Positions 37,830 through 57,497 of a stretch of DNA of 64,000 nucleotides are shown here, piece by piece. The translations under genes and the position numbers were made by a program. Numbering within the stretch: the stretch's first letter is position 1; the number at the start of each line of letters is the position of its first letter. The DNA comes from Phycisphaerales bacterium. GTDB taxonomy: Bacteria > Planctomycetota > Phycisphaerae > Phycisphaerales > SM1A02. The stretch spans positions 1 through 64,000 of the forward strand of contig JAKVBV010000001.1 in NCBI GenBank assembly GCA_022446965.1. The letters are read 5' to 3'. The notes beneath the pieces were generated by a model that worked only from the letters and a program-made list of their open reading frames with translations, was not told the DNA's origin and did not search any database.

Positions 37830-39494
37830 TCAACGCAGGTAGCGTTCGCCAGCCACACCACTGATCGTGCCCAGCAGATCTTCGCCCAGTCGCACTTCGG
37901 CGACCTGCGTGCCCACGGGCACTTCGAAGATCAAGTAGAAGCGGTCGTCGCTGCCACTTCGAGGACGATGGGGGAGATCCTGCAGCGTCGTGAGATCGCC
38001 GTCTCGAACCATCATCAACAGACGGTTGGGTTGCACCAACTCGTAACCGATGGGGTTCCAGTGGTTGTTGTTGACGTCGAGCAGCTGGATGGGTGACTGC
38101 ATGGGCACACGCAGTTTGCGGGCGGCCGTGAAGATGTCGGTCACCGTGCCCGGGTGGCAGGCCACGCGGACAATCGCAGCGCCTTCGTCGACGTGGTAGC
38201 CCTTAATGGCCAGCTTGCCACGGGGATTCTCACCAGGCTTGTTGGGCTTGAAGTCGGCGTCAATCTGCACGAGGCGGCGAGACTCTTCGTCAAAGATGCC
38301 ACCGTGCTGGTCAACCTTCTCCGTGGAGGGCTTGATCTTGCGGTCGAAACGAGCAGCTTGTGCGCCACTGGACACGTGGGCGGAGATATCGCCGCCGAAC
38401 AGGATGTCTTCGGCAGCGCCCTGTACGCCACCTGCGGAGGCGAGCAGTGCGTCGATGTCCGTGGCCTCTGTCACGCCGCCCAAGGGGAAGCGTGTGCTGC
38501 GGATCTGGATGAACTCAGGATTGAAGTTCGACGGCACGGCGAAGACCAATCGGAGATCGGCTTCGTTGTGCCCCTTTGGATTTGTCGCGAATCGATCATC
38601 AGCATCAAACACTCGGAATACGAGTGGGGCTGGGGGCTTGCCTTGTGGTTCTCCCCAGGCTGATGGGTGATAGGTTTGCACGGACTTGCCATTCATGCCG
38701 ATCAGCCGCACCTGGCTGCTGGAGAGCACCAAGCCCCCCTTGAAATCGAAGGACTTCTTGCCCACCTTCAGCGTGACCAGCAGGAAGTCGCCACGGTCCT
38801 GGGCCTCCACACGTTGTGAGCTGCCCACGGTCACGTGCTCAGGATTGATGACGGTGGCGCCCATTCGGCCGTTCTCTTCTCGCACCGTGTCTCGCACGAG
38901 CGACGCAAGGCGGTCGAGATCGGGGTTGGCCAGGGCCAGCGGCCTATCACCGCCGCCGGGCCGCAGCGTGCTCACGCTGGCCATCTCGTAGAAGTCCATG
39001 GTGAGCGTGTCGACGGGGAACCACAGCCCGCTGGCAGGCTTGGCCACCATACCTGCAGCGACCGGTCCGGTGCTGGAGCGGCCCCAGCCTGTGTACCCGA
39101 AGGCATCCCACGGTTGGTGAATGAAGCCCACGCCCACCACCAGCATGCCGATGGTGATGACGCCGGAGCAGGCACCGAAGGCACCGCCGACGACGGCGTC
39201 CATGCCTTCCTGCAAGAAGGCGCCCTCCGGGGCGATCTTGTCCAGCGCAGCTCGGGTGATCAGCAGCGTGATGATGAAGGTCAACAGCAGCGTGAGCCCG
39301 GGCATGAGGCCGCCGAACGACCCTTCGACGAACATCAGATTGAAGAAGAACGGTTCCCACACGGCGATCGCCACTGCACCGGCGACGATCACGCACACCA
39401 GATGCATCAGGCTGCTGAATGCGCCCTCGTTGGACCACCAGTAGGCGATGAGTGCGACGAGGCCGATCACCAGGATGTTGAAGATGAAGATCAT
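37830..39494 (-). CDS. CvpA-like membrane protein with long C-terminal domain
   Basis: This 554-residue protein begins with four or so hydrophobic segments (about 3-17, 27-50, 63-80, 105-125) in a CvpA-like arrangement, including LQEGMDAVVGGAFGACSGV. The remaining 400 residues are soluble and beta-rich, with segments such as DRGDFLLVTLKVGKKSFDF and DLRLVFAVPSNFNPEFIQIR, and are probably periplasmic. CvpA relatives are inner-membrane proteins linked to envelope functions such as colicin V export. The start overlaps the next gene's stop by four bases, so it is coupled to the GspE-like gene. Confidence 0.68.
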   Translation of the reverse strand: MIFIFNILVIGLVALIAYWWSNEGAFSSLMHLVCVIVAGAVAIAVWEPFFFNLMFVEGSFGGLMPGLTLLLTFIITLLITRAALDKIAPEGAFLQEGMDAVVGGAFGACSGVITIGMLVVGVGFIHQPWDAFGYTGWGRSSTGPVAAGMVAKPASGLWFPVDTLTMDFYEMASVSTLRPGGGDRPLALANPDLDRLASLVRDTVREENGRMGATVINPEHVTVGSSQRVEAQDRGDFLLVTLKVGKKSFDFKGGLVLSSSQVRLIGMNGKSVQTYHPSAWGEPQGKPPAPLVFRVFDADDRFATNPKGHNEADLRLVFAVPSNFNPEFIQIRSTRFPLGGVTEATDIDALLASAGGVQGAAEDILFGGDISAHVSSGAQAARFDRKIKPSTEKVDQHGGIFDEESRRLVQIDADFKPNKPGENPRGKLAIKGYHVDEGAAIVRVACHPGTVTDIFTAARKLRVPMQSPIQLLDVNNNHWNPIGYELVQPNRLLMMVRDGDLTTLQDLPHRPRSGSDDRFYLIFEVPVGTQVAEVRLGEDLLGTISGVAGERYLR

Positions 39495-41160
39495 GAGGCG
39501 GATCCCTGTCCAGCGGTGGGTGCCTTGGGTTTGGCCTTGGCCTTGCTGCCACTGCTCAGCACGCGCTGTACTTCTTCCAATGACGTGATGCCCTCGGCGA
39601 CACGGCGAAGCCCGGCTTCTTGCAGTGAACGCATGCGTTCGCGGCGGGCCTGTGCCATGGCGCCCTTGAGGTCGTCACCGGCGAGCAGGCGGCGGATATC
39701 CGTGGTCACCGGCATGACTTCGAAGATGCCGGTGACACCGGTGAAGCCCGTGGCGTTGCACGTGGGACAGTCTTGCATGCGGTTCTTGAACTCAACCTGG
39801 CCACTGGCCCGGTAGATTACGGCGCCTTCGGACAGCCCCAGTCGCTTTGGATCGGCCGGTTGGACGGCCTGGCGGCAGTCATGGCACAACACCCGTACGA
39901 GCCGTTGGGCGACCACGGCTTGCAGTCCCTTGGCGGCGAGATTGACATCGCCCACCGACTGCACCCAGGTGCGAATCGCGCTCATGGCCGAATCGGCATA
40001 GAGCAGCAACACTTGCAACGTGCTGTCCTGTCCGGCGCGAGCGGCGACGGTGGCCGTCTGTGGATCGGCCAGCTGGGCCACGATCACATCGGGATCGCGA
40101 CGCAACATGGACTGCAATTGAATGGCGTGCTCGGGGGCGGCGTCGCCCTCTTCGATCGTGACCTGATCAACGCCTTCGAGGCGGCCTTCGATCTGCTGCT
40201 CAAGCGTCTTGATCATGCTCAAGTACGCATCGTGCATGCCCGCGATGGCGTAGCCCGTGGTGGTGATGCCATGCGCGCTGGGCGATGCAACAAGCACGAT
40301 GCCGCTGCGCTTCTCTTCGGGCACGAGTTTCTCGAGGACGGCGAGTTGGTCGGGGAGCAGGCCCACGGCGTCGGCCTTCATCACCGGTGTCTTGCCGCGG
40401 TCGATGTCGATGCGGCCGCGGATGCCCTGGCTCGACCCCGACAGGGTGAGGTCAAGGGTGTGCCGGCCCAACTCGTCGCTGTTGACTTCGATGCGAGCGG
40501 CCTGTCGCTTGCGTGCTTCGGCTTGATCGAGGCCAGCGATCTCCTTGAGCAGATTGATCGCACGCATGCCGTCTTCGCCGGCGATGGGCTCCTGCTTGGA
40601 TCGCACCGTGTGCACCATGCTGGTGCTGGCCAGTCCACCTGAGGTGAGCGCCAAATCGACACGCGTGCCGCCCTTTTCCAGCGTGGGCAGGATGAGCGAC
40701 TCCAGATGCAGCCAGCTCACCAACAGGGGATCTTCCTTGTCAGGCACGGGCACGGCGCCGTTGGGGCCTTCAAAGGCGAGCGTGGCGTTGGCCGCAGCAC
40801 GCTTGGCCTGCTTGCGGGCGGCCTTGGTCTTGGCATCGGCACCAAACTTGAGGTGGTACCGCATCGATTCGTCGACCGAGGCGTTGCGCTTCTTCCAGTA
40901 GATCAGGATCGGCGCCAGCAGCACCACGAGACCGGACGGAAACGCGATGTAGAAGTTCACCACGGTGAGCATGGTGATGAGACCGGCGAACCCGCCGAGG
41001 ATCCAGGCCATTGCCCAGCCGTAATGGCCTTGACGGGTGCGCATCGCGTCGCCGAAGAGTCGGCTGCCCACGAGCCAGCCCCATGCAGCGAAGGCGCCCC
41101 AGATGAGGATCGGCTTCCAGGGGCTCAGCAGGAATGTGGCGTCGGCAAGGAGGACGGTTG

Positions 41161-41164
<4 letters not shown>
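39491..41164 (-). CDS. Membrane-anchored GspE/PilB-like protein with lost ATPase motifs
   Basis: This 557-residue protein starts with three hydrophobic segments (about 14-36, 50-72, 76-91). The rest aligns in order with GspE/PilB ATPases, but every catalytic motif is degenerate: Walker A reads ASPSAHGITTTG at 293-304 with no Lys; Walker B reads DVIVAQLADP at 359-368 with no GE; the His box reads STLQVLLLYADS near 381. The Zn-binding cysteines (CHDC at 427-430, CPTC at 466-469) and the closing GITSLEEVQRVL are kept. It is probably a scaffold working with the intact PilT-like ATPase upstream. It overlaps both neighbouring genes by four bases. Confidence 0.8.
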
Positions 41165-43900
<2,736 letters not shown>

Positions 43901-43951: not shown

Positions 43952-44857
43952 ATGAGTGAAGAATTCAATCTGCAACTCGATGATGATGAAGAGGAGTGTC
44001 CGCCAGCCGGTGCTGCTAGAGGTTGGCGTGAGGGGCTTCCTCCGCGGCCAGGCGGCATCGATCCGCCGGGAACGAACACTGCTGAATTGTCCGCCTTCGC
44101 AGACGAAGTGACGCGTACAAGAGACCGCATCGTCATTCTGGGCCGACGTGGGGCAGGCAAGACCGTCTTCCTTGCGAGGCTCTATCAAGAGCTGTGGCGA
44201 CGCACTGAAGGATTGCAGGCTCGGGCGCTCGATGGCAATGCGCATCAGCGGTTCATGGAGTGCATCGAGGCCATGGGCAACGGCCGCTGGCCCGAAGCAA
44301 CACTGGCCCAACGCTGGGCGGATCTGGAGCTACGCTACGGATCGCGTATCTGGACGCTTCGCGTGCTCGACTATCCCGGCGAGGTCTTCCGCCGTGCATT
44401 CGTGGAAGGCGCCGAGGACGACGCGGCTGACATGCTTCGCAGCCATGTCGATGCCGCCGCGGCGGTGTTGGTGTTGATCGACCCGGTGGCCGCGCGGAGC
44501 GGTTCGCTCGAGGCGTCGGTTGATGCTGAATTCGGTATGTCCGCAGCTTTGCGCCGAGTGCATGAACGGGCCGGCGACCACGCTGTGCCTGTGGCCGTGG
44601 TGCTCACGAAATGCGATGTCGCGTTGCCGCACATCAATGAAGCGGGCGGGGCCCGGCAGTATCTGGAATCGCATCTGCCCGGACTTGTTCGTGACGGCGG
44701 TGTGTTCAGAGTGTTCGCGTCGTCGGCTGTACGAGCGCAGGCCGATGCTCTGGGCACACTCCGACCCGTGCCTGAGAAGGATGCGCTGGGCATTGTGCAG
44801 CCATTGCAATGGTGTCTCAAATGCCTGGCTCGTGAGTCCGGGGGTGAAGCCTTGTGA
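43952..44857 (+). CDS. P-loop GTPase, first gene of the rightward arm
   Basis: This 301-residue protein has an acidic, Pro-rich N-terminus (1-45), then a P-loop NTPase domain: Walker A GRRGAGKT at 64-71, DYPG at 140-143 as the G3 motif, and TKCD at 219-222 as the G4 motif that selects guanine. It has no membrane segment. The layout resembles TRAFAC-class GTPases of the DO-GTPase group, reported in conflict- or signalling-type gene clusters of complex bacteria; that assignment is from memory and unverified. The stop overlaps the next start (GTGA), so it is translationally coupled to the next gene. Confidence 0.78.
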   Translation: MSEEFNLQLDDDEEECPPAGAARGWREGLPPRPGGIDPPGTNTAELSAFADEVTRTRDRIVILGRRGAGKTVFLARLYQELWRRTEGLQARALDGNAHQRFMECIEAMGNGRWPEATLAQRWADLELRYGSRIWTLRVLDYPGEVFRRAFVEGAEDDAADMLRSHVDAAAAVLVLIDPVAARSGSLEASVDAEFGMSAALRRVHERAGDHAVPVAVVLTKCDVALPHINEAGGARQYLESHLPGLVRDGGVFRVFASSAVRAQADALGTLRPVPEKDALGIVQPLQWCLKCLARESGGEAL

Positions 44858-46863
44858 GCTCTGTCACCCGCTGTGCCGTGCACCGATTCGGGTCACGCGA
44901 CGGGTATCGCGTGCTTGCAGTATCGCCACTCCTCAGTGACGCCGAACAATCGGCGCTGGATCCAATGACCACCGGCGTGGCGGAGGTGGGGCCGGGCGCC
45001 GATGCGGTGGGCGCCCAACAGGCCATGCTCGTGCGCACCTTGCCCGGCGGTCGCATTGCCGTAACGCGATGGTTCGCAGGTCAACAGGATGATGCCGGGC
45101 GGCCGACGCTGGAATTGCGCACGCTGGTGTTCTCACCTCAAGATTGGAAAGACGGTGCTCGTCTACTGCCACGGCAGCTGTTGGGCGAGCATCCGGCCTG
45201 GTCGGATGACGCATTCAAGTCTGGTGGGACGGTGGTTCTGGGCATTCCTGAATCGGCACCACCGCTTACCGATCGCTCGGTGTTCGAGCTCGCCGATCTG
45301 ATGCGGCCCGAGTCACTGCCGGTGCGGTTGATCGACGGCCCAGGCATGCGCAGTGCGCTTCTGGGCCTTGTGGAACGCATGCGTGACGACGAAGCCGTGC
45401 ACCTGCAATGGGGCATCGGCCTGTCAGTGGTGGCCCGCAATCTCGATGTGATGACACTCACAAAGGGTGGCGTGGTGGGCACCTTGGCGCACGACTGGCA
45501 CCGGGCGGATCTTCGCGATGCCATGGGCGGCATGGTGCCGTCACTCACGTCGCCGCCGGTGGTCGAACTGGTTGAATCACAAGCGGCCCCGGCCCGGCCG
45601 AAGATCGACATCACCGAACCGGTCCTCCGGACCGTGCCCAGAACACGCCAACGCAGCATGGCGCCCGTCATCGCGGCTGTGGCCGCAGTGATCGTGATTG
45701 GCGGCGCGCTGTACCTGTCGATCCCGGGTGATCCTGAACCTCAGGCACCCGTGTCTCCGGCCCCCGGGGCACCCGTGGCGGTCACCACGCTGCCAAGCAC
45801 CGACGAAGATGACGCTGACAATCCGTGGACACCGCCGGCACAAGACACACCGTCCACGCCGACACTCGGTGGCCAAGGCGCAGCTCGGCCTGTGGTCACG
45901 CCACCGCCGGCACTGGGTGATGCCGCGACGGACGGCACGCTCAGCGAAACGGCTGATGACGCACCTGCACAGGACACGCCGACTGCACCCATGGAGCTCG
46001 AACCGGATGCGGGTGAGACGCCCGATGCAGCGCCGGACACGGACGATGCACCCGATGAAACTCAACCCGCCGATGATCCACCTGCGGCGGAGCCAGAGAC
46101 GCCCACGCCTGCCGATGAGACATCCGGGGATGGAACCGGCGAGGTGCCAGAGGGGCAAGACGAGGATTCAGCGGTGTCCGATCCGCCACCATCCATCACA
46201 CCACCTGGTGACGCGGACGATGCCCCCGAAGACGTTGATGCCCGCGGTGCCCTGATGCGCATGCGGGCGTTGGCTGGCACGTTGCGCACACTGCGCCTGC
46301 GTGACGTCTTCAACACGCTCAGCGATACAACCGACGGCTGGAAAGCCGTGGCCCCGCTGACCGAAGCGCAAGCGCGCGCTCGGGACGCATTCTGCGACGC
46401 CTTCGAGGCGCGTGAAGCACTCCGAGCGATCGAAGCACACTGGCTGGCGCCCGCGTTTCTCGCGGTGGACTGGTCACGTCCGGCGACTGAGAACTGGATC
46501 ATGGATCAATCGGACGCGGTTCGAGACGGCGCCGATGTGTTTCAAGTTGCTGATGGTGTGCGTGATCGGATCGATCAACTCAACGCCTTGGTCGAGGCCA
46601 CAGCATTGGCCGTGGAGATAGAAGAGAACCTCGCCCGAGATCGCCAGGTCGAGCGGTATCCCAATTCGAGGGTGGTGCGGTGGCTGGACGAACACGCGCG
46701 ACAGTGCCTTCCGGAGGGATATGAAGCCATGGCGCGAGGAAAGTGGTCCATTTCACAACAAGAAATGGCACAATTGGAGCGAGTCACTGAGACGCTGGAC
46801 CAGGCCCGTTTCCGTCTGCGTACCTATCTCAAGGAGATCGATCCACATGGCAAGATTCCCTGA
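44854..46863 (+). CDS. One-TM protein with possible GTPase-adaptor N-terminal domain
   Basis: This 669-residue protein starts at a GTG overlapping the GTPase stop. Residues 1-240 form a cytoplasmic domain whose pattern (HRFGSRDGYRVLAVSPLLS; then GGRIAVTRWF, LELRTLVFSPQDW) recalls the N-terminal domain of GTPase-associated GAP1 proteins; this is a tentative reading. A basic stretch (RTRQRS) and a TM segment at 269-290 follow, so the C-terminus is outside. Residues about 290-465 are disordered, rich in Pro, Thr, Asp and Glu. The final 200 residues are helical. It overlaps the vWA gene by 17 bases. Confidence 0.68.
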   Translation: MSSVTRCAVHRFGSRDGYRVLAVSPLLSDAEQSALDPMTTGVAEVGPGADAVGAQQAMLVRTLPGGRIAVTRWFAGQQDDAGRPTLELRTLVFSPQDWKDGARLLPRQLLGEHPAWSDDAFKSGGTVVLGIPESAPPLTDRSVFELADLMRPESLPVRLIDGPGMRSALLGLVERMRDDEAVHLQWGIGLSVVARNLDVMTLTKGGVVGTLAHDWHRADLRDAMGGMVPSLTSPPVVELVESQAAPARPKIDITEPVLRTVPRTRQRSMAPVIAAVAAVIVIGGALYLSIPGDPEPQAPVSPAPGAPVAVTTLPSTDEDDADNPWTPPAQDTPSTPTLGGQGAARPVVTPPPALGDAATDGTLSETADDAPAQDTPTAPMELEPDAGETPDAAPDTDDAPDETQPADDPPAAEPETPTPADETSGDGTGEVPEGQDEDSAVSDPPPSITPPGDADDAPEDVDARGALMRMRALAGTLRTLRLRDVFNTLSDTTDGWKAVAPLTEAQARARDAFCDAFEAREALRAIEAHWLAPAFLAVDWSRPATENWIMDQSDAVRDGADVFQVADGVRDRIDQLNALVEATALAVEIEENLARDRQVERYPNSRVVRWLDEHARQCLPEGYEAMARGKWSISQQEMAQLERVTETLDQARFRLRTYLKEIDPHGKIP

Positions 46864-48940
46864 TGATCGGATTGTCGCTGCGGTCTTGACCGCGAGCGTG
46901 CTCGCATTGGGCGCCTGTTCCTCGCCGCAGGCCACACCAGACGCACCCGATGAGGCTCCCGAGCGGCTCACCGGCACGGTGGACAGCACCCGCCTGCAGC
47001 CGCTGGAGGTCAAGCCCACCACGACAGAGGCGCCGCGCACCGTGTTCACGCCGCAAACGCCATCCCATCGCAGCCCGGTCGGTGGACAGGGCTCGTCCAG
47101 CGGGCAAGGTTCTAGTTCCGCGTCTGGCACGCAGCAGAGCGCCGCGGCCGACACCGCTTCAGGTGCGGATGACGGCAGCATGGACCGCGGGACGCATTCG
47201 GGCGTGTCCTTCACTGACAATCCCCACGGTCAGGGCAACCCGGCCAATGACAAGGCAGGCGGGGCGAGTGAGGCGGCGTCGCCTGCCTCCAGCGATCAGT
47301 CCACACAGAACAGGCCGTCGGCCTCGCAAACGTCGCAAGGCCAGGACACGGCCCAGTCACTTGAGGGCAGTGTGTCCAGTGAGGACGGGGCCGACGAAGG
47401 GCAGGCGCAGAACAACTCCATCGCTCGAGGCACCGTGGGCGGGCAGGAGGCGCCCCCGACTCTCGACCCGGCAGACGATGCCCAATCCGATCCGGCGGCG
47501 GCGTTGCCGGAAGTGGCCGATCCACTTGAGTGGCGGCAGCGTCCTGCCGGAGGCACGTTCATTCCGACACCGATCACGCCGGACGATGCCCCGAGCAGCT
47601 TCCTTGGCGCCGGTGGGGGCACCGGCCACGGCGCCGGAGTCGATGGGGGGACCGGGCAAGAGGGGCACGGCGCCGCCGTCGCCGACAGCACGACACGTGG
47701 CACCAGCGAAGCGGAAGATGATGAATCTGAAGATGCTGGCGATGACGAAGAAGACGCCAAGGACGCCCTCGTGCAGGCGGAGCATTCCGATGAGGGTACG
47801 CCTGAAGAAGAGTCCGTCGCCACCAACGCGACGCAGTCCGAGTCGTTCGCGGGGCTGGCGTTCCCGCAACGAGAAGCCGCTGAGGAACCTCGTCGGCGTC
47901 CGCCCACACTGCTGTCACCGCCAACATCACAGGCCCAGCCCGAACCCGTCGATGCCATGGTGGCCATGTTGCAAGGAACATGGCAAGAAGTAGATGGCAC
48001 AGCTGATGCCGCGGCCGATTTTGCCCCCGGTGGGGCAGGAACCCGAATCATCGGTATCGATCCGGGCCGGCGCCGCATGGTGTGTGTGAGCGCCTGGGGA
48101 TCGCCGCCATCGTTGGTGCTGGCCGGTGAAGTGGAAGCGGGATTCCGCGCCTCAGGCGTGGTGTCCATTCGAGTTCGCGATGATTTGGAAGGTGGCCGCT
48201 ATCCCAATCTGCCGTCGCGATTGCCGGCGGGTCTGGGTGTGTATGCACGGCCCGACGCCGAAGCGATGGAAGTGCGATGGTCGCTCAAGGACGGTGTGCT
48301 CACACTGGGCGACCGTACATACGAACCGTGTGATCCACAGGCACTCGATGCGCTGGTGGCTGACAAGGGCGCGACCGTGGCGGCCCATGATCAGGACACA
48401 CAACTGACCTATGTCGACGACACCGATGGAAGCACCGTGTCGAGTGTCGACTTCTTCGGCCTCAAGGCCACCGGACGGTGGTTCTGTTACATCGTTGACA
48501 CGTCAGGGTCGATGGGCACCGACGGCAAGATCGATCGCTTGAAGGAAGAGCTCGCCCGTTCACTAGCCGCATTGCCACGTGATGCCATGTTCTACGTGTT
48601 CTTCTTCGACAGCAGGACCAAGACCCTGCAGGATCGATGGATGAAGGCCTCCAGCGCTGGCGGTGTGATCTCCCGACTTGATGACATTCAGGCCAAGGGT
48701 GGCACCAATCCCAAGGATGCCATCCGCATCGCGTTGTCTGAATTGGATCCCCGTCCAGACGCGATCTTCTTCATGACAGACGGCCAGATTCCATCAGATG
48801 CCTACGAGATGCTGAATCAACTGAACTCCAGCTCGCCGCGATCACGTGTACACACGATTGCATTCGGCACCGATGCGAGGTCGATCATCATGGAGAACAT
48901 TGCTCGGGCGCACGGTGGCCAATTCAAGGCCGTGCCCTGA
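46847..48940 (+). CDS. Lipoprotein with C-terminal von Willebrand factor A domain
   Basis: This 697-residue protein has a signal peptide with lipobox LGAC (Cys24). Residues about 25-410 are low-complexity (Ser, Gly, Gln, Asp, Pro). A folded segment at about 410-530 precedes a vWA domain at about 542-697. The metal-ion-dependent adhesion site is complete: DTSGSMG, the Thr in GGTNPKD and the Asp in FMTDGQIP. vWA domains bind protein partners through a divalent metal. AGGAG lies ten bases before the ATG at 46847. The gene ends five bases before the convergent arm. Confidence 0.82.
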   Translation: MARFPDDRIVAAVLTASVLALGACSSPQATPDAPDEAPERLTGTVDSTRLQPLEVKPTTTEAPRTVFTPQTPSHRSPVGGQGSSSGQGSSSASGTQQSAAADTASGADDGSMDRGTHSGVSFTDNPHGQGNPANDKAGGASEAASPASSDQSTQNRPSASQTSQGQDTAQSLEGSVSSEDGADEGQAQNNSIARGTVGGQEAPPTLDPADDAQSDPAAALPEVADPLEWRQRPAGGTFIPTPITPDDAPSSFLGAGGGTGHGAGVDGGTGQEGHGAAVADSTTRGTSEAEDDESEDAGDDEEDAKDALVQAEHSDEGTPEEESVATNATQSESFAGLAFPQREAAEEPRRRPPTLLSPPTSQAQPEPVDAMVAMLQGTWQEVDGTADAAADFAPGGAGTRIIGIDPGRRRMVCVSAWGSPPSLVLAGEVEAGFRASGVVSIRVRDDLEGGRYPNLPSRLPAGLGVYARPDAEAMEVRWSLKDGVLTLGDRTYEPCDPQALDALVADKGATVAAHDQDTQLTYVDDTDGSTVSSVDFFGLKATGRWFCYIVDTSGSMGTDGKIDRLKEELARSLAALPRDAMFYVFFFDSRTKTLQDRWMKASSAGGVISRLDDIQAKGGTNPKDAIRIALSELDPRPDAIFFMTDGQIPSDAYEMLNQLNSSSPRSRVHTIAFGTDARSIIMENIARAHGGQFKAVP

Positions 48941-48945
48941 TCGGC

Positions 48946-49827
48946 TCACTGGGCCGAGGCGGTGCCGCTGCGAATTCGATCGTGGAAGATCAGCCCAGAC
49001 TCGAGCGTGAGCGGGGCGAGGTCGTAGGGAACACGTTGGTTGAGCACCGCACTCCGTACAGGTGCCCATGTATCGAACGAGTCTTCCGTCACCTTGATCG
49101 ATGCAACATGCGTGCGGTGGTCGAGCACACGCAGTGCGGCATCGACCAATGAGGGCGCCTGCGGTGTGGTGAGATCGATCCCGCCGTCCGGGAGCAAGGG
49201 GATCCATCGCTCCAGATCTTGTCCACCGGCTCGGAAGCACGGCTCGTGTTCGACGATCCGGACATTGTCAACATCGACAGCGAGCGAGTTGAATGTGAGC
49301 CAGAATCGACATCGCTCACCCTGTGGGTGTCGCAACGCCGACCAACCATGCCAGTCGTTGATGACGTAGAGGCGGTCGCCTGTCACCACCAGTTGTACCG
49401 GCACGCGACCGGCTACGGCGCGACGACGCGGCAGACGCATCTCCACCATGCGACGCGACTCTTCTTCCTTGATCGCACGCGACAACTCCGCGATGTGTTC
49501 CTGAAGATCGCCCTGTGATTCTGGGGCACCGTCGTCTGGTGGCGCCCACGCGTCCATGGCCGCGGTGAGATCGTCGAGATGTTGACGGGCCTGGGCGATC
49601 TTGGTATCGAGTTCGTCGATCTCGGTGATGGGCGCAACCGTGTCCGGGAGTTCGAGCGCTTCGGGCAGCGCGACCTCGGTGGGCACGTGCGTGGGCATCA
49701 CCGTTCGTGCACGCGACAACACCGCGGCGATCACCGCGACGAAGATCAGCAGACCGAAAATGTTGCAGATCGTGTCCAGCAACAGGTCGAGACTGTCAGG
49801 GGCGCCTGTACTGCGACGGCGACTCAT
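48946..49827 (-). CDS. One-TM ExbD/MotB-like partner protein A
   Basis: This 293-residue protein has a short cytoplasmic start and one TM segment (about 12-38) reading LDLLLDTICNIFGLLIFVAV. Asp14 and Asp18 lie at the membrane entry, where ExbD, TolR and MotB carry their proton-carrying Asp. A coiled coil follows (about 70-125), then a soluble domain (about 140-293). It lacks a recognisable OmpA-type peptidoglycan domain. It is the last gene of the leftward operon, overlapping its upstream gene by four bases. Confidence 0.7.
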   Translation of the reverse strand: MSRRRSTGAPDSLDLLLDTICNIFGLLIFVAVIAAVLSRARTVMPTHVPTEVALPEALELPDTVAPITEIDELDTKIAQARQHLDDLTAAMDAWAPPDDGAPESQGDLQEHIAELSRAIKEEESRRMVEMRLPRRRAVAGRVPVQLVVTGDRLYVINDWHGWSALRHPQGERCRFWLTFNSLAVDVDNVRIVEHEPCFRAGGQDLERWIPLLPDGGIDLTTPQAPSLVDAALRVLDHRTHVASIKVTEDSFDTWAPVRSAVLNQRVPYDLAPLTLESGLIFHDRIRSGTASAQ

Positions 49828-50588
49828 GGCGCTGCACCCTGTTCGGGCATCGCCATCAGGCCACTGGTAGACCAGTCTTCAGCGATGAGGTCGATTCCGT
49901 GTCCGATGCCATCGGCGGACCACTGCGGCAGCAGTGCGCGGATGTACCGCCATGTACCCACGCCCGAGGGGCGAATCACGAACACCAGCACACGCCGATC
50001 CCGGTCAGGCAGGTCGTCCACCCAGTCGGCGACAGTGCGGGCCAGTGCGGCTGGGTCGCCGTTGTGCAGGGCGAAGGCAGCCTCGTCATCTCCGCCGCCA
50101 CCGAGGACGGCGCGGCCTCCGCCCAATTCAATGACCAGTGGGATGCGATCAGAGTCTTCTCGATCCAGCAGATAGGTGACACGCTTCCGGGTCCGCAATT
50201 CATCGAGTTCGCCGGCAAGGCTCACGGCGCGACGTTCCATTGCGTCCTGCACGCTGCGTTCGGTGTCGAGCAATGTCTCGGTGTGCGAACGTTGTGCGGT
50301 GCGTTGCATTTCATCCAGCAGCCGCTGCACCTCGTCGATCTGGTCTTCGAGGGAGAGCAGCTCCAACTGCATTTGGGCTGGATCTTCGATCGACTCTGGC
50401 GCGGGGGCCGCGGACGTGTCGTGTACGTCCTGTTCGTAGGCGTCAGGAATGGCGATCATGCTCACGGCTTTGCGTCCCGCGAGCAGCAACAAGACCAGAA
50501 TGATCAGCAGTGTGATCCCGATCGTCGAGATCATCACGTCCTGAAAGGAGAAGAGGCTGATCGGAGTGCTGTGCCCGGATCGGCGCAT
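49824..50588 (-). CDS. One-TM ExbD/MotB-like partner protein B
   Basis: This 254-residue protein has one TM segment (about 13-37) reading SLFSFQDVMISTIGITLLII, with Asp17 at the membrane entry. A coiled coil follows (about 70-130), then a soluble domain (about 145-250). The SFQD-type TM differs from the LLLDTICN type of partner A, so the channel probably has two non-identical partners. It overlaps the channel gene by a single base and partner A by four. Confidence 0.7.
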   Translation of the reverse strand: MRRSGHSTPISLFSFQDVMISTIGITLLIILVLLLLAGRKAVSMIAIPDAYEQDVHDTSAAPAPESIEDPAQMQLELLSLEDQIDEVQRLLDEMQRTAQRSHTETLLDTERSVQDAMERRAVSLAGELDELRTRKRVTYLLDREDSDRIPLVIELGGGRAVLGGGGDDEAAFALHNGDPAALARTVADWVDDLPDRDRRVLVFVIRPSGVGTWRYIRALLPQWSADGIGHGIDLIAEDWSTSGLMAMPEQGAAP

Positions 50589-51457
50589 CAGCGATCCTCC
50601 GTACGCACCCGTGCCGTCACGTGTCGTGTGCAGTACAGCCGCACATCATCGAGCAGTCGTTCATCAGCGCGACGCACTGCCCGCAGGAACAACGACAACA
50701 CCAGTGCGGCAACCAAGCCTTCGCCGGTGGTGATGAAGGCGGTGTCCAGGCCGCCAAGGACGTCGGTCAGTCGTCCCGCTAGGGCGTCGATGTCCTTGTT
50801 GTCTTCCTGGCTGAGCACGCCGCCGAACTGTCCGATGGCTTCGGTCAGACCGATGATCGTGCCGAGGAAGCCCAGCACCGGAACGGCCCAGATGAACCCG
50901 TTGGTGAGGGTGTAGCCGCTGTCCATCGAGGCCTCGTCGCCGTCAGCTGACGCGGCGAGCACCTCGCCGATGTCGCCCGGTCGGCCAAGATTACGCACAC
51001 TCTTGAGGGCTGTCAGCACGCGATCAAGCAGCATGAACTTCGAGGGATCGTCGACCGACGACTCGATGGCGCCGATCACGCGGTCGACCGTGGCCGTGGA
51101 CAAGGCGAACCCAGGGTCTTCGGGCATGAAGCGCAGTCGAAGCGCTGTGCGTTGGGCGGCGATCTTGAGCATCTTGAGCAGCAAGATGGCCGTGGTCCAA
51201 CACGACAAGGCGGCGATGGGAATTGGAATGCCGCCAAAGCCGGTGAGGTATTCCCATGCCACGGCGCCGCCGTTGGTCGTGCGAAGCAACCAAGCCAGGC
51301 CATAGAGCAGGCACATCAGGGCGACGCCCAACAGGCACGACGCGGTGGCCGATGGGGTGGTGTAGCGTCCTGCAGGGAGCCCGATCCGGGCTTCGGGGTC
51401 GCATGCGGCGTAGGACAGCACTGGTGTGGTGCTCTGATCCCAGGCGGTGTCGTTCAT
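50588..51457 (-). CDS. MotA/TolQ/ExbB-family proton channel protein
   Basis: This 289-residue protein has hydrophobic segments at about 37-58, 75-97, 180-205 and 225-255. The last two are the family core: VPVLGFLGTIIGLTEAIGQF and DTAFITTGEGLVAALVLSLF. In TolQ/ExbB, this core surrounds the Asp of a TolR/ExbD-type partner and passes protons. The ATG at 51457 has GAGGAT eight bases upstream. It overlaps both neighbours, so channel, partners and the 963-aa protein are translated together. Confidence 0.85.
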   Translation of the reverse strand: MNDTAWDQSTTPVLSYAACDPEARIGLPAGRYTTPSATASCLLGVALMCLLYGLAWLLRTTNGGAVAWEYLTGFGGIPIPIAALSCWTTAILLLKMLKIAAQRTALRLRFMPEDPGFALSTATVDRVIGAIESSVDDPSKFMLLDRVLTALKSVRNLGRPGDIGEVLAASADGDEASMDSGYTLTNGFIWAVPVLGFLGTIIGLTEAIGQFGGVLSQEDNKDIDALAGRLTDVLGGLDTAFITTGEGLVAALVLSLFLRAVRRADERLLDDVRLYCTRHVTARVRTEDR

Positions 51458-54345
51458 GAATCGGATCCTCGAGTGAAGATGAGGGTCGGGACGGCGGGCA
51501 AGTCGGCCGGCGGCAAGGGCCGACCATTCGCGTCGGTGTTCAGACGATTGAAGGTGCACACGCCGCCGGGGCCCACGCGGAGGATGGCGGGGTCGTCGGG
51601 CATGGTGCCGATGATGTCCCAGCCCTGTGCGGTGTACAACAGCACAGCGGCGGGGGCCGCTGGTGCAGCTGCAGCCTTGACGGCCTGTGCGGGCGCCAAC
51701 AGTGTTTCATTGAGTGCAGCAGGTGAGGGCGCGTCAGCCAGCATGCGATTGGATCCACGCAGCAGTTCACGACGAGCTGTGCGGCTGCCGTTCCAGCTGG
51801 CCTTCAGCCAGTCCGACTGCAGCGGCGAATTCCCACGTGAGGCCGTAGTGATCCACGTGTCCAAGGCCGTGCCGGCTGCCGCGTCGCCCAGCGAGGCGTG
51901 CATCGCCTTGAGCACGACAAAGCGAATTTGTGCGTTGGCCAGGGCATCGGGGTCGTCAAGCGATTCGAGCTTGTTCAGTGTGTCGAGGAGCACCACAGCC
52001 GTGGGTTGTCCGGCGTCGAGCGCATCAATCGCTTCTTCGAGCAACATGGATTCTGCAACAACGGTCAATGATCCCGAGGGTGTAACACCTTCGGGCCACT
52101 CCACCGGCGTGGTCGCCAACTCGGACAATGGCAGATCGAGGTCGTCAATGCTGGTGAGCGCGTTCTTGAGTTCCTGATCGGGCAGGTTGTTGCTGCGGCG
52201 ATACAGCACACCGCTGGTACTCAGCGGCAGCTTGTACAGGTCGAGGAGATACGCCCCGTTGAGCGTGTGCAATGCTAGGTCGCGACTGTCAGGTGCGCCT
52301 GCTGCGGTGAGCAGGGTGGTGGCGATGTTGGCATATGGCGTCTTGTCTTCGGTGGCTAGTTCAAGGTGCTCGCGCAATCGGTCGCCGGCGGTCTCGATGA
52401 GTTCTGGATCAGGTGTCGTATCACCGTCGCCCATGAGCCCGGCGAGGATAAGCACGGGTACGACGTGTTCACGCCATTGCTGTACGGCCCGACTCGCGGC
52501 GGCGTCGCGTCGTCCGTCGTGCCAATCCTTCATCGGCAACAGGCCAGACAGCATGCCGGCGTGTTCCTCCACGAGTTGGTCCCAGACCGCAGCCCAGAGA
52601 TCCTCTCCAGCGGGCACGAACTGCAACTGCTGCAACAGGTCGCTGGCCGTGTGGATGCCGTCGATCGTGCCCTTGGCTTCATCGTGCATCCGCTGGATAT
52701 TGGTGCGATGTTGCTGGATCAGCGAACGAACGTCGGATTGCACCGCGACGGGCTCGGCGGCGATGGCATTGAGTTCCGCCAAGCCGTTGGCCATAATCTG
52801 CAGTCGCTCTTCCCAGGCACCGATATCACGCAGGCCGGGCTTGGGCAGTAGCACCAGCTCATTCAGTGCTTCGAACCGCGGCTGCAGCGCACGTCGTTGT
52901 TCTTGTTCCCACGCCTGTCGGCGTGCACGCAATGCCTCGGTCGGCGCATCGAGATCCAATGCGGCGCCGTTGGGCACCGTGGTCCGAGCTTCGCGAAGTG
53001 CTTCTTCAACCACGAGGAACATGGACTCTGAATCTGGTCCTTGCAGGGCTTCGGTTGCTCGAACCGCATGGCCGCGGGCCGTGGCGTACCGTTCGTTCCA
53101 ATCTTCTCGATGCCGGTCGATCTTGGCCTTAAGCACTTCGCTTGATGTGGCGTCGATGTGGCTCTGGTCGATCGCATCCTGCAAGGTGCGCATGGCTGCG
53201 GCGGGATCATCACCGTCGAGTTGTTCGTTCACGGCCTGCTCGATGTTGGCGGCCACCAGGCGTTGGTGGCGGGCTCGATCGCCCACCAGGATGCCGACGA
53301 TGATCACCACGGCGACGCAGGCGATCGCACCCATGGCGATCCCCCAACGGCGTCTCTTGGCAGCACGATGTTCCGCGAGCCGATGCGTGAACCGGGCAAG
53401 TACGCGCTGAGGAATGGCGATCGACTTGCGCTGCAGGGCGGCCACCTTGCGGTCGAGGTCATTGATCGACCGTTCTTCGTCGAGGGCCCGCTCGAGGTCG
53501 TCCACGAGGGCCTTGTCCTGTTGCACCTTGGCGTCGCGCATGGACAGTTGGTCGAGCCATGCGAGTGGTCCGGTGGCGATGGGCACGACGTCTGCAGGCA
53601 CTGGGCCGGCATCACAGAGGGTTCGCCACTGCTCGAGCAGTGTGCATGCCCGCGCATGATCCATGGCGGCCCAGGCGTCGTGCAGGTGCATCGCTGTTTG
53701 GCGCATGTACGTGGCGTGCGCTTCGCTGTCGGCCGATCGAAGGATGTGTTGCAATTGCTGCACGGCCTTGGCGCCAGCGCCATCGGTGGCCATGCCCATA
53801 TCGATCAGTTCGCGCTCCATGTCGCGCATCGCGTCCACGTCGGCGGATTCGATCACTGACTGCAGTCGACGATCCATCGAATCAGCGGCAGCATCGATCA
53901 GCGGCACGGCCATCTGCACCCATCGCGTGACTCGCGGCTGGGCTCGTTTCAACCTGGTGATCGCTCTGAGGCGGGCCTGTAGCGCGTCGCGCCGGACACA
54001 CGCAGCCATCCAACTGGTGACTTCGTCCTCGGCGCGACTGGCCTCGACCGGGGCGAGCACCAGCGGTTCCAGTTGGGCTCGTGTGGGCAGGTTGGAGACG
54101 GCGTGCACAGCGGCGGTGAAGTTGTCGTCCGCCAGGAGGTCAACCACGCACTTGGCCAGATTGCCACAGTCCTCGGCATAGGCGGCCGCTTCGTGGATAC
54201 AGCCACGGTCCGCCCAGTCGAGTGCTCGACGGCAGTGCATGGCGAGCGTCTCGACGGCGGTGGTGGCGTGCGCGAGGGTGTCGCTGTCGGTGCTGCCCGC
54301 CGCGATCGTGCGGCGGAGATCCGCGATGGTGGCGGCGATGGTCAT
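51454..54345 (-). CDS. 963-residue single-pass protein with long helical domains
   Basis: I do not recognise this protein. Residues 1-330 are helical and cytoplasmic by the positive-inside rule (KRRRW just before the TM). One TM segment spans about 334-354. Residues 355-963 would be periplasmic: mostly helical with coiled-coil stretches (about 360-560) and an Ala/Asp-rich C-terminal part. A large tethered helical protein next to a proton channel could be its scaffold or the lever it moves. It overlaps the neighbours on both sides by four bases. Confidence 0.62.
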   Translation of the reverse strand: MTIAATIADLRRTIAAGSTDSDTLAHATTAVETLAMHCRRALDWADRGCIHEAAAYAEDCGNLAKCVVDLLADDNFTAAVHAVSNLPTRAQLEPLVLAPVEASRAEDEVTSWMAACVRRDALQARLRAITRLKRAQPRVTRWVQMAVPLIDAAADSMDRRLQSVIESADVDAMRDMERELIDMGMATDGAGAKAVQQLQHILRSADSEAHATYMRQTAMHLHDAWAAMDHARACTLLEQWRTLCDAGPVPADVVPIATGPLAWLDQLSMRDAKVQQDKALVDDLERALDEERSINDLDRKVAALQRKSIAIPQRVLARFTHRLAEHRAAKRRRWGIAMGAIACVAVVIIVGILVGDRARHQRLVAANIEQAVNEQLDGDDPAAAMRTLQDAIDQSHIDATSSEVLKAKIDRHREDWNERYATARGHAVRATEALQGPDSESMFLVVEEALREARTTVPNGAALDLDAPTEALRARRQAWEQEQRRALQPRFEALNELVLLPKPGLRDIGAWEERLQIMANGLAELNAIAAEPVAVQSDVRSLIQQHRTNIQRMHDEAKGTIDGIHTASDLLQQLQFVPAGEDLWAAVWDQLVEEHAGMLSGLLPMKDWHDGRRDAAASRAVQQWREHVVPVLILAGLMGDGDTTPDPELIETAGDRLREHLELATEDKTPYANIATTLLTAAGAPDSRDLALHTLNGAYLLDLYKLPLSTSGVLYRRSNNLPDQELKNALTSIDDLDLPLSELATTPVEWPEGVTPSGSLTVVAESMLLEEAIDALDAGQPTAVVLLDTLNKLESLDDPDALANAQIRFVVLKAMHASLGDAAAGTALDTWITTASRGNSPLQSDWLKASWNGSRTARRELLRGSNRMLADAPSPAALNETLLAPAQAVKAAAAPAAPAAVLLYTAQGWDIIGTMPDDPAILRVGPGGVCTFNRLNTDANGRPLPPADLPAVPTLIFTRGSDS

Positions 54346-55211
54346 AGGGCGGGGGTCCCCGACTGCAGGGCAAGCACGATCGTGATGACAGCGCCGATCA
54401 CCAGCAGCACCGCCAAGCCAGTGAGGGCCATCAGGCCCACCGGCGGTCCACCCGGAGTGAGCACCACATCGGGCGCGTGGGATGGTTCTTCGGCGGGAGC
54501 CGCTGGCGAGGTGGCGATGTCTTGGGTGGCATCTTGGGCGGGCGGCTGGGGATCAGCTGCAAGGTCAAGAATGCTGCGACCGCTGCTGCGCATCGCTTGG
54601 GCACAGGGCGTGCCATCGACGGCAATCACCACATCGGCGCCGGCATCCTGAGGAAAGCGTTCCAGCAACACCCATCGCTGCCATGCGATAGACCCGATTG
54701 CGGGTTCAATGGCACGCCACCAGTCCATGGCCGGATGTGCGGATGGAAAGATCACGCGCACGGCATCGCCTGCGCGTACACGAGCTGCGATGGTGTCGGT
54801 CCAGTCGCCGCCGCACATGTCCCACGAAACTTGTGGTGGCGCGGTGACGAGACACGCGGTGGTGTCGTCGCCCAAATCCGGTTGGCCGCCCACGGGCACG
54901 ATGCTGTCGTCGTGCATCATTTGCCCCGGCAGCACTCCGGCGGGAATCTGATCCACGATCAGGTGTCGTGTGCGACGCATGGTGCGACCGTCTGCCAGCG
55001 GCGGCAGGGCGACCACGCGAGTGAGCACGGTGTGCGTGGTGCCGGTGCAGTCCACTGTTCGAATGGACGATTCGTCGACGGCGCCCGTGGCGCCGGCGAA
55101 TTGCAGGCCGGACAAGGGCTCGAGTGTTTCCTTGAGGGCCGCAGGGGCATCGGCGTCGTCCCAGTGGAACCCGGCCTCGGTGTTCCATGCATGTGTGAGG
55201 ACGGTTGTCAT
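54342..55211 (-). CDS. Tail-anchored protein with possible GTPase-adaptor domain
   Basis: This 289-residue protein has a cytoplasmic domain (about 1-200), a Pro/Ala-rich linker and one C-terminal TM segment (about 263-284), so it is tail-anchored. The segment TVLTRVVALPPLADGRT followed by RRTRHLIVDQIPAGVLPGQ has the same general pattern as the adaptor-like domain of the 669-residue protein in the opposite arm. The relation is a tentative reading. It overlaps both neighbours by four bases. Confidence 0.6.
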   Translation of the reverse strand: MTTVLTHAWNTEAGFHWDDADAPAALKETLEPLSGLQFAGATGAVDESSIRTVDCTGTTHTVLTRVVALPPLADGRTMRRTRHLIVDQIPAGVLPGQMMHDDSIVPVGGQPDLGDDTTACLVTAPPQVSWDMCGGDWTDTIAARVRAGDAVRVIFPSAHPAMDWWRAIEPAIGSIAWQRWVLLERFPQDAGADVVIAVDGTPCAQAMRSSGRSILDLAADPQPPAQDATQDIATSPAAPAEEPSHAPDVVLTPGGPPVGLMALTGLAVLLVIGAVITIVLALQSGTPAL

Positions 55212-55681
55212 GACGTTGCCGTTCCTGCAACGAGGTGGTCCACGAAGGCATCGGGCGTGCCATCAGCCGTGGTGAGTAGGCAGATGAGCGAGGTGTCGTC
55301 ACGGCGACATGTGACCAATGCCACATCGCGACCGCCATCACCAGGGCCACCGACGAAGTCCACACGTTCGGTGGCCCAGCCTTGCCCCTTGGCGGCATTG
55401 CAGGCCTTGGTCAAGCCGCCGGGGCCCACGGCGATGGTGGGCACATCGAGGTGCTCACGAAAGGCCGGTGCAAATGCACTGCGGCAGTGGCCGCACGCTG
55501 GGGTCGAGCTGATGCTGCCATCGGGTGCGATCGCGTCGCCGTTGACATCAAATGCGACAGGTCGAAATCGCACAGCGGCGTCTGGGCCGAGCACGGGATC
55601 GCCGGTCAACGTCTCTGCGGCGACGAATCGAACGGTGGACATGTTCAGTGCGGCATCGCAGTACGGGCACGGCGCGAACAT
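55208..55681 (-). CDS. Small zinc-ribbon protein, first gene of the leftward arm
   Basis: This 157-residue protein has two cysteine pairs, CPYC near the N-terminus and CGHC at about residue 66, which would hold a zinc ion. The spacer between them (GPDAAVRFRPVAFDVNG) and the C-terminal half look like a compact alpha/beta domain. No membrane segment is visible. AGGAAAGG lies upstream of the ATG at 55681. An in-frame GTG at 55687 is an alternative start. The function is unknown; it opens the operon that encodes the channel. Confidence 0.62.
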   Translation of the reverse strand: MFAPCPYCDAALNMSTVRFVAAETLTGDPVLGPDAAVRFRPVAFDVNGDAIAPDGSISSTPACGHCRSAFAPAFREHLDVPTIAVGPGGLTKACNAAKGQGWATERVDFVGGPGDGGRDVALVTCRRDDTSLICLLTTADGTPDAFVDHLVAGTATS

Positions 55682-55747
55682 GGACACGACCCTTTCCTGG
55701 CGCCTGTGCGCCTCATCACCCTCGGTCGGCGAAATCGGGCTTCCAAC

Positions 55748-55820
55748 GTCCGCGGCAGGACTTGAACCTGCAACCTTCGGCTTCGGAGGCCGACGCTCTA
55801 TCCAATTGAGCTACGCGGAC
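55748..55820 (-). tRNA. tRNA-Arg (CCG)
   Basis: The minus strand folds into a cloverleaf with acceptor GTCCGCG/CGCGGAC, D-arm GCTC...GAGC, anticodon stem TCGGC/GCCGA with loop CTCCGAA (anticodon CCG) and T-arm GCAGG-TTCAAGT-CCTGC. CCA is not encoded. It lies between the leftward operon and the phosphatase gene. Confidence 0.95.
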
Positions 55821-55858
55821 CGATGCGGGGCGATTCTACGCCATCGGTCTCGCGTGGG

Positions 55859-55864
55859 TAGGAT
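55859..55864 (+). promoter_or_regulatory. -10-like TAGGAT before the phosphatase gene
   Basis: TAGGAT ends seven bases before the GTG at 55872. No strong Shine-Dalgarno sequence is present. Confidence 0.4.
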
Positions 55865-55871
55865 CTGAGGC

Positions 55872-57497
55872 GTGGGAACAGGTGCTTCAACTCCAACAGA
55901 CTCGGCGCTGCTTCGGCTGAGCGTGCTGCACGGACCAAGTCTGCCGCCGATGTCGGTGACTCGAGCCGGCGCCGTGCTCGGTCGAGGCTCGGGCTGTGAC
56001 ATCAGGTTGGCTGATCCGACGATCTCTCGGCGTCACGCATCGATCTCGCGGGAGGGCGAGGAGTGGCTGCTCACGGATCTCGGGGGCGCCAACGGCACCT
56101 GGCTGAATGACGTTCGCCTTGATGCCCAGATCACCACGCCCTTGAAAGAGGGCGACCGCATTCGACTGGGCCCGTGGCTGCTGTCGGTCGGCGCGTGGGC
56201 GACGACCACCATGGCCGTGGCCACGGCGGACGATCCGCTGGGGCAACAACGCATCAAGGCCGTGACATCATCCAGCGAACGCATGGCGATGCATCGTCTG
56301 CGTTTGCTCGTGGACTGCGCCGGCCGAATCAATCGGGCGGCCGACGACGCGGCCCTTGCCGAAGCACTGGCACAGGCCGCAGTAGAAGGCACGGGCTATG
56401 CACGCGCCGCGGTGCTTCGTCCAGGCATGGAAGGGCTCGACGTTGAACTGCTCGGTTGGCATGGCCCCGAAGACACGGGCGCCGGCGCGCAATTCAGTCG
56501 CTCGCTTGTGACTGCCGCGGCCGAGGGCCAGATGGTGTGCATGGAGGGGGACGCGGCGCCGGACTACGGACAGAGCATCGCTGATCTGGCCATCCACTCG
56601 GCGCTGTGTTGTCCGATCGAAGTGGACGACATCGTCGCAGCCTGCCTGTATCTCGATGCCCGCGGTGCCGAGGCGTCGGTTGCGCAGGATGCGAACAGCT
56701 TCTGCGAGGCACTGTCTCGCGTGGCCGGATTGGCACTGGCCAATCTCCGCCGCCGCGAAATGCAGCAACGACAAGAACGCATGGCCGAGGATCTTGGTGC
56801 TGCGCGCGAAGCCCAGCAGTACATGATTCCAGAGGGCGTACAGCAGACGGGCTGCCTTGAGCATGCAGTGATCTTTGAGCCTGGCCGCAGTGCCTCTGGC
56901 GACCTGTTCGACGTGATACAGGTGGACGACACCCGCACGGCGCTCTTTCTTGGCGATGTCAGCGGCAAGGGTGTCGGGGCAGCCATTCTCATGGCTGCGG
57001 CGCAAGCCTATCTCCGCGGGGCCATCACCCGGCATGACACACTGCAAGATGCCGTGGAAGATCTGAACCGCTACGTGGTGGATCGAACACCGACCAATCG
57101 GTTTCTCACGCTTTGGGTTGGCATCTTTCACACCGATGGTCGCGTTGAGTATGTCGACGCCGGTCACGGGTACTGGGCCCATGTGCAGGCAGATGATGTG
57201 GTCGTGGATGAAGAAGCCGAGTGTCCGCCAGTTGGATTCGACGCGCTCATCGACTATCCCGCCGAAACAGTGCGGCTTGCTGCGGGCGATCGCATCGTGC
57301 TGATGACTGATGGTGTTCCCGAACAGGCCGATGCCGCCGGTGAGCAGTTCGGGACCGAAGGGATTGCGGCCGTGCTTCATGCATCAAGCGGTGTGGACGA
57401 TGATGTGAAGGGGGTGCTTGCAGCTGTCCGTGCCCACGCAGGCGGGGTGCCGCCAGGTGACGATACGACCATCGCGAGCGTTTCACTGAAGGTGTGA
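55872..57497 (+). CDS. FHA-GAF-PP2C (SpoIIE-type) serine/threonine phosphatase
   Basis: This 541-residue cytoplasmic protein has an FHA domain (about 30-105; VLGRGSGCDIRLADPTISRR and NGTWLND) that binds phosphothreonine, a GAF-like sensor (about 135-300) and a SpoIIE/PP2C phosphatase (about 325-541). Phosphatase metal sites are kept: RSASGDLFDV, FLGDVSGKGVGAA, VDAGHGY, LMTDGVPEQ and GDDTT. It would detach phosphate from a partner such as an anti-sigma antagonist. Its place beside the 44-55 kb locus suggests it regulates that complex, but it has its own promoter-like element. Confidence 0.87.
   Translation: MGTGASTPTDSALLRLSVLHGPSLPPMSVTRAGAVLGRGSGCDIRLADPTISRRHASISREGEEWLLTDLGGANGTWLNDVRLDAQITTPLKEGDRIRLGPWLLSVGAWATTTMAVATADDPLGQQRIKAVTSSSERMAMHRLRLLVDCAGRINRAADDAALAEALAQAAVEGTGYARAAVLRPGMEGLDVELLGWHGPEDTGAGAQFSRSLVTAAAEGQMVCMEGDAAPDYGQSIADLAIHSALCCPIEVDDIVAACLYLDARGAEASVAQDANSFCEALSRVAGLALANLRRREMQQRQERMAEDLGAAREAQQYMIPEGVQQTGCLEHAVIFEPGRSASGDLFDVIQVDDTRTALFLGDVSGKGVGAAILMAAAQAYLRGAITRHDTLQDAVEDLNRYVVDRTPTNRFLTLWVGIFHTDGRVEYVDAGHGYWAHVQADDVVVDEEAECPPVGFDALIDYPAETVRLAAGDRIVLMTDGVPEQADAAGEQFGTEGIAAVLHASSGVDDDVKGVLAAVRAHAGGVPPGDDTTIASVSLKV

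Follow-up and report, generated by a model that had tools for sequence, protein, structure and literature searches.

The window, the whole 64,000-nucleotide stretch of DNA analysed here, carries a locus that probably encodes a GTP-gated, ion-driven envelope machine of the TolQR/MotAB type, a reading in which proton drive and GTPase control are suggested by conserved residues and by co-inheritance. The host genome comprises 2.24 Mb in 112 contigs (97% complete), and the closest relatives that bear a name are MAGs of marine Phycisphaerales. The initial annotation had described nine genes in two convergent arms, five bases apart and nearly all overlapping within each arm. All of these open reading frames exist (Table 1), the stop codons of the two arms are separated by the spacer TCGGC (48941-48945), and overlap was found at every junction within the arms, by 1, 4 or 17 bases. 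Two starts were corrected: the m3 channel most likely begins at 51457 and the p3 vWA protein at 46847. Simple hydropathy indicated four transmembrane (TM) segments in m3, against a single one in each of m1, m2, m4, m5 and p2; when searched singly, m1, m2, m4, m5 and m6 each gave no clear Pfam match. The FHA-GAF-PP2C phosphatase reported beyond the tRNA gene was borne out by FHA, GAF and SpoIIE Pfam matches. It adjoins m6 in those window-clade loci that extend far enough, and is a clade-specific neighbour, possibly with a regulator role.

Table 1. Features of the locus by position in the window, as assigned from sequence comparison and structure models
Feature	Position	Strand	Evidence
p1, DO-GTPase2-family GTPase	43952-44857	+	PF19993 E 1.3e-11, above cut-off; P-loop GRRGAGKT, LDYPGE, TKCD
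p2, second GAP1, one TM	44854-46863	+	PF20013 E 0.003, below cut-off; family matches
p3, vWA-domain lipoprotein	46847-48940	+	VWA_3 E 1e-9; lipobox LGAC; MIDAS DTSGS
m1, one-TM motor B subunit	48946-49827	-	Asp18 at TM entry; coiled coil; periplasmic beta domain
m2, second one-TM motor B subunit	49824-50588	-	FxFQD, Asp17; profile homology to m1
m3, MotA/TolQ/ExbB-family channel, four TM	50588-51457	-	PF01618 (MotA_ExbB) E 1.2e-10
m4 (M4), 963 aa, one TM, helical	51454-54345	-	model pLDDT 88.7; co-inheritance
m5, shortened GAP1-N2 protein, C-terminal TM	54342-55211	-	profile match to long GAP1 of relatives
m6, zinc-ribbon remnant of ZnR-DO-GTPase2, 159 aa	55208-55687	-	four Cys kept
tRNA-Arg(CCG), between m6 and phosphatase gene; outside machine	55747-55820	-	
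FHA-GAF-SpoIIE (PP2C-type) phosphatase gene	55872-57497	+	FHA/GAF/SpoIIE Pfam matches

A channel profile was scanned against 84,980 species genomes and returned 400 relatives, of which the best 80 of 400 loci were read; these were picked by similarity to the MotA-like gene only, and contig edges were allowed for in the counts. The minus-arm order ZnR(-GTPase), GAP1, M4, MotA, B2, B1 was preserved in 97-98% of the cases that could be tested, which came from Planctomycetota, Verrucomicrobiota and Lentisphaerota: M4 lay upstream of MotA in 62/63 testable loci, GAP1 upstream in 43/44 and ZnR(-GTPase) upstream in 38/39, and two B subunits were found near the channel in 57/59. This order goes beyond chance because it is conserved in 80 independently found loci. 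The close channel type, defined as E 1e-88 or better (the next type begins at 1e-64), occurs in 19 of 392 planctomycete genomes; 17 of these 19 also have M4 (Fisher 7e-22) and 16 have GAP1-N2 (Fisher 3e-16), and channel and partner are less than 8 kb apart in all 14 genomes with both on one contig. M4 itself is present in 25 of the 392. Whether the genes co-occur in other planctomycetes is thus answered with yes for the minus arm, which, as judged from gene order and co-occurrence, is one co-inherited system with GTPase, GAP1, channel and two B partners.

The association is not absolute on the side of the GTPase core. Three genomes (G222, G352 and G387) have ZnR-GTPase, GAP1, M4 and GYF without the MotA triad alongside. 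The core can thus function where no motor adjoins it, which counts against a GTP-gated motor. In the triad-free system of G352, the GYF protein is fused to a T2SSE domain (type II/IV secretion ATPase; L129 8259-10430, E 1.5e-94), a fusion suggesting that another module can replace the motor. The idea that a long M4 always accompanies the motor was dropped, as G222, G095 and G200 have a long M4 without a neighbouring MotA; M4 is short in G352 and G387.

The channel tree, built from 80 rows, contained two deep clades, A and B. Clade A spans Planctomycetota, Verrucomicrobiota and Lentisphaerota and includes the cultured Botrimarina colliarenosi Pla108 (L096); its loci have a long GAP1, an intact ZnR-GTPase and no p1-p2, and in most of them a GYF multi-TM gene separates M4 from MotA. 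Clade B loci have a short GAP1 and a convergent vWA gene, nearly all of them without the GYF gene. Often p1-p2 are present too, lying either behind p3 in convergent orientation or on the strand of the ZnR-GTPase and upstream of it. On this distribution, the plus arm is a later addition in one of the two deep clades and stands outside the ancestral machine, and the window locus is a derived form, with a stub m6, a short GAP1 and a plus arm that contributes the vWA lipoprotein alongside a second, intact GTPase and a further GAP1. The proposal that the nine genes belong to one system was upheld; the minus arm is co-inherited across the 80 loci, and the channel tree places the plus arm later. One could instead regard the arms as separate systems that are neighbours by chance, given that clade A lacks the plus arm and that some relatives (G017, G029) have p1-p2-type pairs on a different contig. 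We consider this very improbable: p1-p2 adjoin the motor arm in both of the arrangements named above, and loss of the m6 GTPase tracks the presence of p1.

That loss is evident from the relatives of m6. Its homologues elsewhere measure about 450 aa (roughly 400-560 aa); behind an identical type of zinc ribbon they have a DO-GTPase2 domain in which P-loop, DNAGE and K-x-D are intact, while in the window and the closest loci the protein is reduced to the ribbon, keeping the four Cys only. By this comparison m6 is a ZnR-DO-GTPase that has lost its entire GTPase domain; the zinc ribbon originally noted in it is real, and the protein is, on the evidence of the full-length relatives, a GTPase remnant. 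The domain was lost at least twice, once among the loci of the window clade and once in L059/L062, which stand apart on the channel tree; a further apparent loss in L116 was rejected as a contig edge. Wherever a bare ZnR protein occurs on long enough sequence, p1 is there with its motifs intact, in every case. The P-loop GTPase recognized at the outset is p1, a DO-GTPase2 whose GRRGAGKT, LDYPGE and TKCD motifs are intact in p1 itself and in its relatives, and it is the only DO-GTPase2 match above cut-off across the host genome. Because bare m6 coincides with an intact p1 as sole genomic DO-GTPase2 above cut-off, GTPase function seems to have passed from the ancestral ZnR-GTPase to p1, as the pattern of presence and loss suggests.

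The two possible GTPase-adaptor proteins, p2 and m5, both proved to be GAP1-N2 relatives by Pfam matches of their families and, for m5, by profile. Compared with the long GAP1 proteins of relatives, m5 matched with probability 99.9 (E 1.5e-33, 240 columns), and 8/12 members of its close family match PF20013, as do the long GAP1 relatives down to E 1e-28. Since its homologues elsewhere are full GAP1-N2/GAP1-M proteins of up to about 1150 aa, m5 is by homology a shortened GAP1-N2 protein. The profile comparison of p2 with long GAP1 was by itself not significant (probability 0.9), and its link to GAP1 rests on Pfam matches of its relatives, 7/18 of which match PF20013 (best 8.7e-7); read through this family, p2 is a second GAP1, more divergent than m5. 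Its TM segment, at about residue 272-290, is conserved in relatives, with a Pro-rich C-terminal part beyond the membrane. Three members of the p2 family carry TSP3_bac repeats and one of the 18 an fn3 domain; Pfam found no fn3 (FNIII) domain in the window locus.

The motor triad agrees with the channel and the two one-TM partners first described. The m3 channel matches PF01618 and has four TM segments; its Thr residues T199 and T242/T243 (TM3/TM4; start Met left out of the count) do not vary across 12 channels, and it ends about 30 residues past TM4, with no C-terminal tail. The Asp at the membrane entry of each partner is invariant as well, D18 in m1 (n=66 sequences) and Asp17 within FxFQD in m2 (n=61 sequences). 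The corresponding B-subunit Asp of ZorAB and MotAB contacts Ser/Thr residues in the A ring (PMC11890865), and AglR-AglQ-AglS provides a precedent for one TolQ-type with two TolR-type subunits (PMC3169522). The two B subunits are homologous to each other by profile (probability 99.2, E 1.6e-19). A TM helix, a coiled coil and a beta-rich domain can be made out in the m1 model (pLDDT 84.7); the last of these, which is periplasmic, gave weak fold matches to TolR 5by4 (Z 5.9, 93 aligned, 3.9 A) and ExbD 8pek (Z 5.2, 86 aligned, 3.2 A), the top m1 structure matches outside the coiled coil. PF02472 (ExbD/TolR) was absent from m1 and m2 in Pfam searches, nor did it feature in the 25 commonest families across 127 aligned relatives; the missing Pfam match of m1 and m2 and the weakness of the fold match count against the proposed GTP-gated motor. 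Foldseek with the m1 model gave no match at E 0.001, a PDB sequence search with the channel profile gave nothing at E 0.01, and m1 and m2, when compared with PDB sequences, hit mainly coiled-coil proteins. The B subunits had no Pfam match to an OmpA-like peptidoglycan-binding domain, and OmpA-like folds were absent among the m1 structure matches listed. A distinct, commoner planctomycete MotA-B2-B1 triad was seen in L040-L044, from other families of the order, and with second-class channels. Its channel is longer and neither a GTPase nor M4 lies close by; the Asp is missing from its B2, which has FPFLSILACVIG in place of FSFQD, so only one B subunit there could carry protons.

The 963-aa one-TM helical protein was upheld by the m4 model, which comprises a cytoplasmic helical domain of about 330 aa, the TM segment, and on the periplasmic side a helical part of about 530 aa followed by a small C-terminal beta domain. 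By analogy, this layout resembles a TolA/TonB-type transducer with a large extra cytoplasmic domain. Foldseek with the m4 model gave no match at E 0.001, and the VIA structure rows for m4, scattered helical proteins, were uninformative; the absence of an explanatory fold match counts against the GTP-gated motor. The vWA lipoprotein p3 has the VWA_3 match, lipobox and MIDAS expected from its description; among its relatives, the MIDAS DxSxS is present in 39/39 and a lipobox in 17/39, many of the others being cut by contig ends.

Putting these parts in order, we propose that an envelope signal would be read by GAP1/p2, by the vWA lipoprotein or by the periplasmic arm of m4, and would alter the GTP state of p1. 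This state would be relayed to the channel by way of the GAP1 proteins and m4's cytoplasmic domain. There, an m3 ring around one m1 helix and one m2 helix would give ion flow, and the resulting movement would reach the cell wall or outer membrane through the periplasmic portions of m1, m2 and m4. In the window clade, the GTPase role in this scheme would have shifted from the ancestral ZnR-GTPase, now the stub m6, to p1.

The initial annotation knew of no described system with this set of genes, which holds for the full set and does not hold for the GTPase and GAP1 core, a family already described (PMC7159879). Kaur et al. (2020) reported DO-GTPases that bear zinc ribbons and GAP1-N2 proteins that have TMs at the C-terminus, with vWA, kinase and PP2C genes among the neighbours; the versions they described from planctomycetes include a GYF-TM or a GYF-trypsin gene (PMC7159879). 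Like these GAP1-N2-type systems, the locus family has a TRAFAC-type DO-GTPase2 with the Walker-B Glu (LDYPGE in p1), GAP1-N2/GAP1-M, a TM-anchored GAP1, the planctomycete GYF-TM gene, and vWA and PP2C neighbours. The zinc ribbon on the GTPase, usual though not universal in such systems, is part of one protein in the relatives and is split between m6 and p1 in the window. Beyond what the main text of Kaur et al. names, the family here has a MotA/ExbB/TolQ channel, B subunits and M4 as a conserved half of the operon. The terms 'MotA', 'ExbB', 'TolQ' and 'proton' are absent from the main text of Kaur et al. (PMC7159879), and our literature search found no paper linking a DO-GTPase with a MotA channel. 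Because that main text names no MotA, ExbB, TolQ or protons, the motor triad with M4 is an undescribed, motor-bearing variant of the DO-GTPase/GAP1 family. Since the clade A GYF multi-TM gene fits their GYF-TM gene, Kaur et al. probably saw some such loci and left the motor unnamed.

Three motor systems offer further comparison. The Agl-Glt gliding machine runs under the small, Ras-like GTPase MglA and has TonB-C domain transducers (GltG/GltJ). In Myxococcus, it combines one TolQ-type with two TolR-type subunits, an FHA-containing partner and one-TM transducers with periplasmic helical domains (PMC3169522, PMC5349195), all of which have counterparts here; it differs in GTPase family and operon, and neither TonB-C domains nor gliding genes are found here, so that the parts are alike and homology is not claimed. 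ZorAB of Zorya likewise pairs a MotA-family channel with an Asp-bearing one-TM partner, and its conflict role has been shown whereas that of the DO-GTPase/GAP1 locus is predicted (PMC11890865). In contrast to Zorya, m3 is without the long ZorA cytoplasmic tail, a GTPase switch is present, the B-subunit domain may be TolR/ExbD-like rather than OmpA/Pal-like, and PADLOC found no match to ZorC, ZorD or ZorE among the ten locus proteins. Tol-Pal shares a channel, a B subunit, an outer-membrane lipoprotein and a one-TM transducer with long periplasmic helices and a small C-terminal domain; unlike Tol-Pal, the locus has two unlike B subunits, a large m4 cytoplasmic domain, a vWA lipoprotein and the GTPase core, and Pfam found no Pal, OmpA, TolB or TonB/TonB-C domain in it.

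As to purpose, we place defence slightly ahead of envelope upkeep. In a defensive role, which we regard as possible though doubtful, the GTPase/GAP1 core would sense phage or another attacker and the motor would be the effector, like ZorAB in Zorya; it would either act on the invader when this is at the envelope or bring the infected cell to a halt. A role in biological conflict is predicted for GAP1-N2 GTPase systems (PMC7159879), and the patchy distribution (M4 in 25/392 genomes), the weak ZorA matches of m3 and the trypsin-like proteins upstream in one lineage are consistent with this. So is fast divergence, with m4, p2, m5 and m6 only 35-44% identical to a same-genus relative (m4 38%, p2 35%, m5 43%) compared with 80% for the channel, 84% for IMPDH and 90% for PilT. 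Against it, the flanks are mostly metabolic with few, largely kinase-like PADLOC matches, and 116 flanking proteins, tested for a defence island, gave a negative result; within the window clade the position next to PilT-IMPDH does not vary, no relatives of the locus were found among viral contigs or plasmids, and a ZorA-like tail, ZorC and ZorD are lacking. The trypsin-like proteins, large zinc-ribbon/TM proteins with a trypsin-like look, lie upstream of the ZnR-GTPase in L073, L074, L075, L081 and L100 and in L083, L085, L086 and L088, and are reminiscent of the planctomycete trypsin component of Kaur et al. (PMC7159879).

The same stable chromosomal site speaks for a constitutive envelope machine like Tol-Pal or Agl-Glt, in which m3-m2-m1 would exert force via m4 on the outer-membrane lipoprotein p3, serving integrity, division or surface movement under GTPase timing. 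Its membrane and periplasmic topology, the parallel with Tol, and the parallels with Agl-Glt in one TolQ-like and two TolR-like subunits, GTPase, ZnR, GYF, FHA and a helical one-TM protein whose C-terminal domain is small (PMC3169522, PMC5349195) point the same way. We nonetheless think this role rather unlikely, as only about 5-6% of sampled planctomycete genomes have the system, which argues against a general envelope need, m4 and the GAP1s diverge fast, and Pfam found none of the TonB-C, Pal or TolB domains. Several neighbouring genes were also observed. A gene recurs mostly downstream of the B subunits in L109, L113, L114, L118, L119, L122 and L126, its representative having, by eye, an FHA-like N-terminus, a TM segment and a C-terminal domain with 'DVDLHVTDPNGEEI'. 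In one freshwater lineage (L061, L064, L065, L068, L069, L087), DUF481-like outer-membrane barrel genes recur upstream on the opposite strand; this may reflect no more than synteny, or the barrel may be a partner in the outer membrane. Within the window, secretion/pilus ATPase genes (T2SSE, PilT-like) occupy 39491-42297, divergent from IMPDH, and the order PilT-IMPDH-p1 is conserved in the window clade.

Tentatively, and somewhat short of even confidence, we suggest that the locus represents a new class of envelope machine, in which a double-GTPase/GAP1 switch gates an ion-driven 5:2-type motor with an axle of two different B subunits and a dedicated trans-envelope arm, M4, so that a predicted-immunity switch would have recruited a rotary motor as its output. 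DO-GTPase and GAP1 proteins are predicted immune switches, and a co-inherited motor would give one branch of them a concrete output. If true, a GTPase-gated branch with a heteromeric B pair would join the MotAB, TolQR and ExbBD motors.
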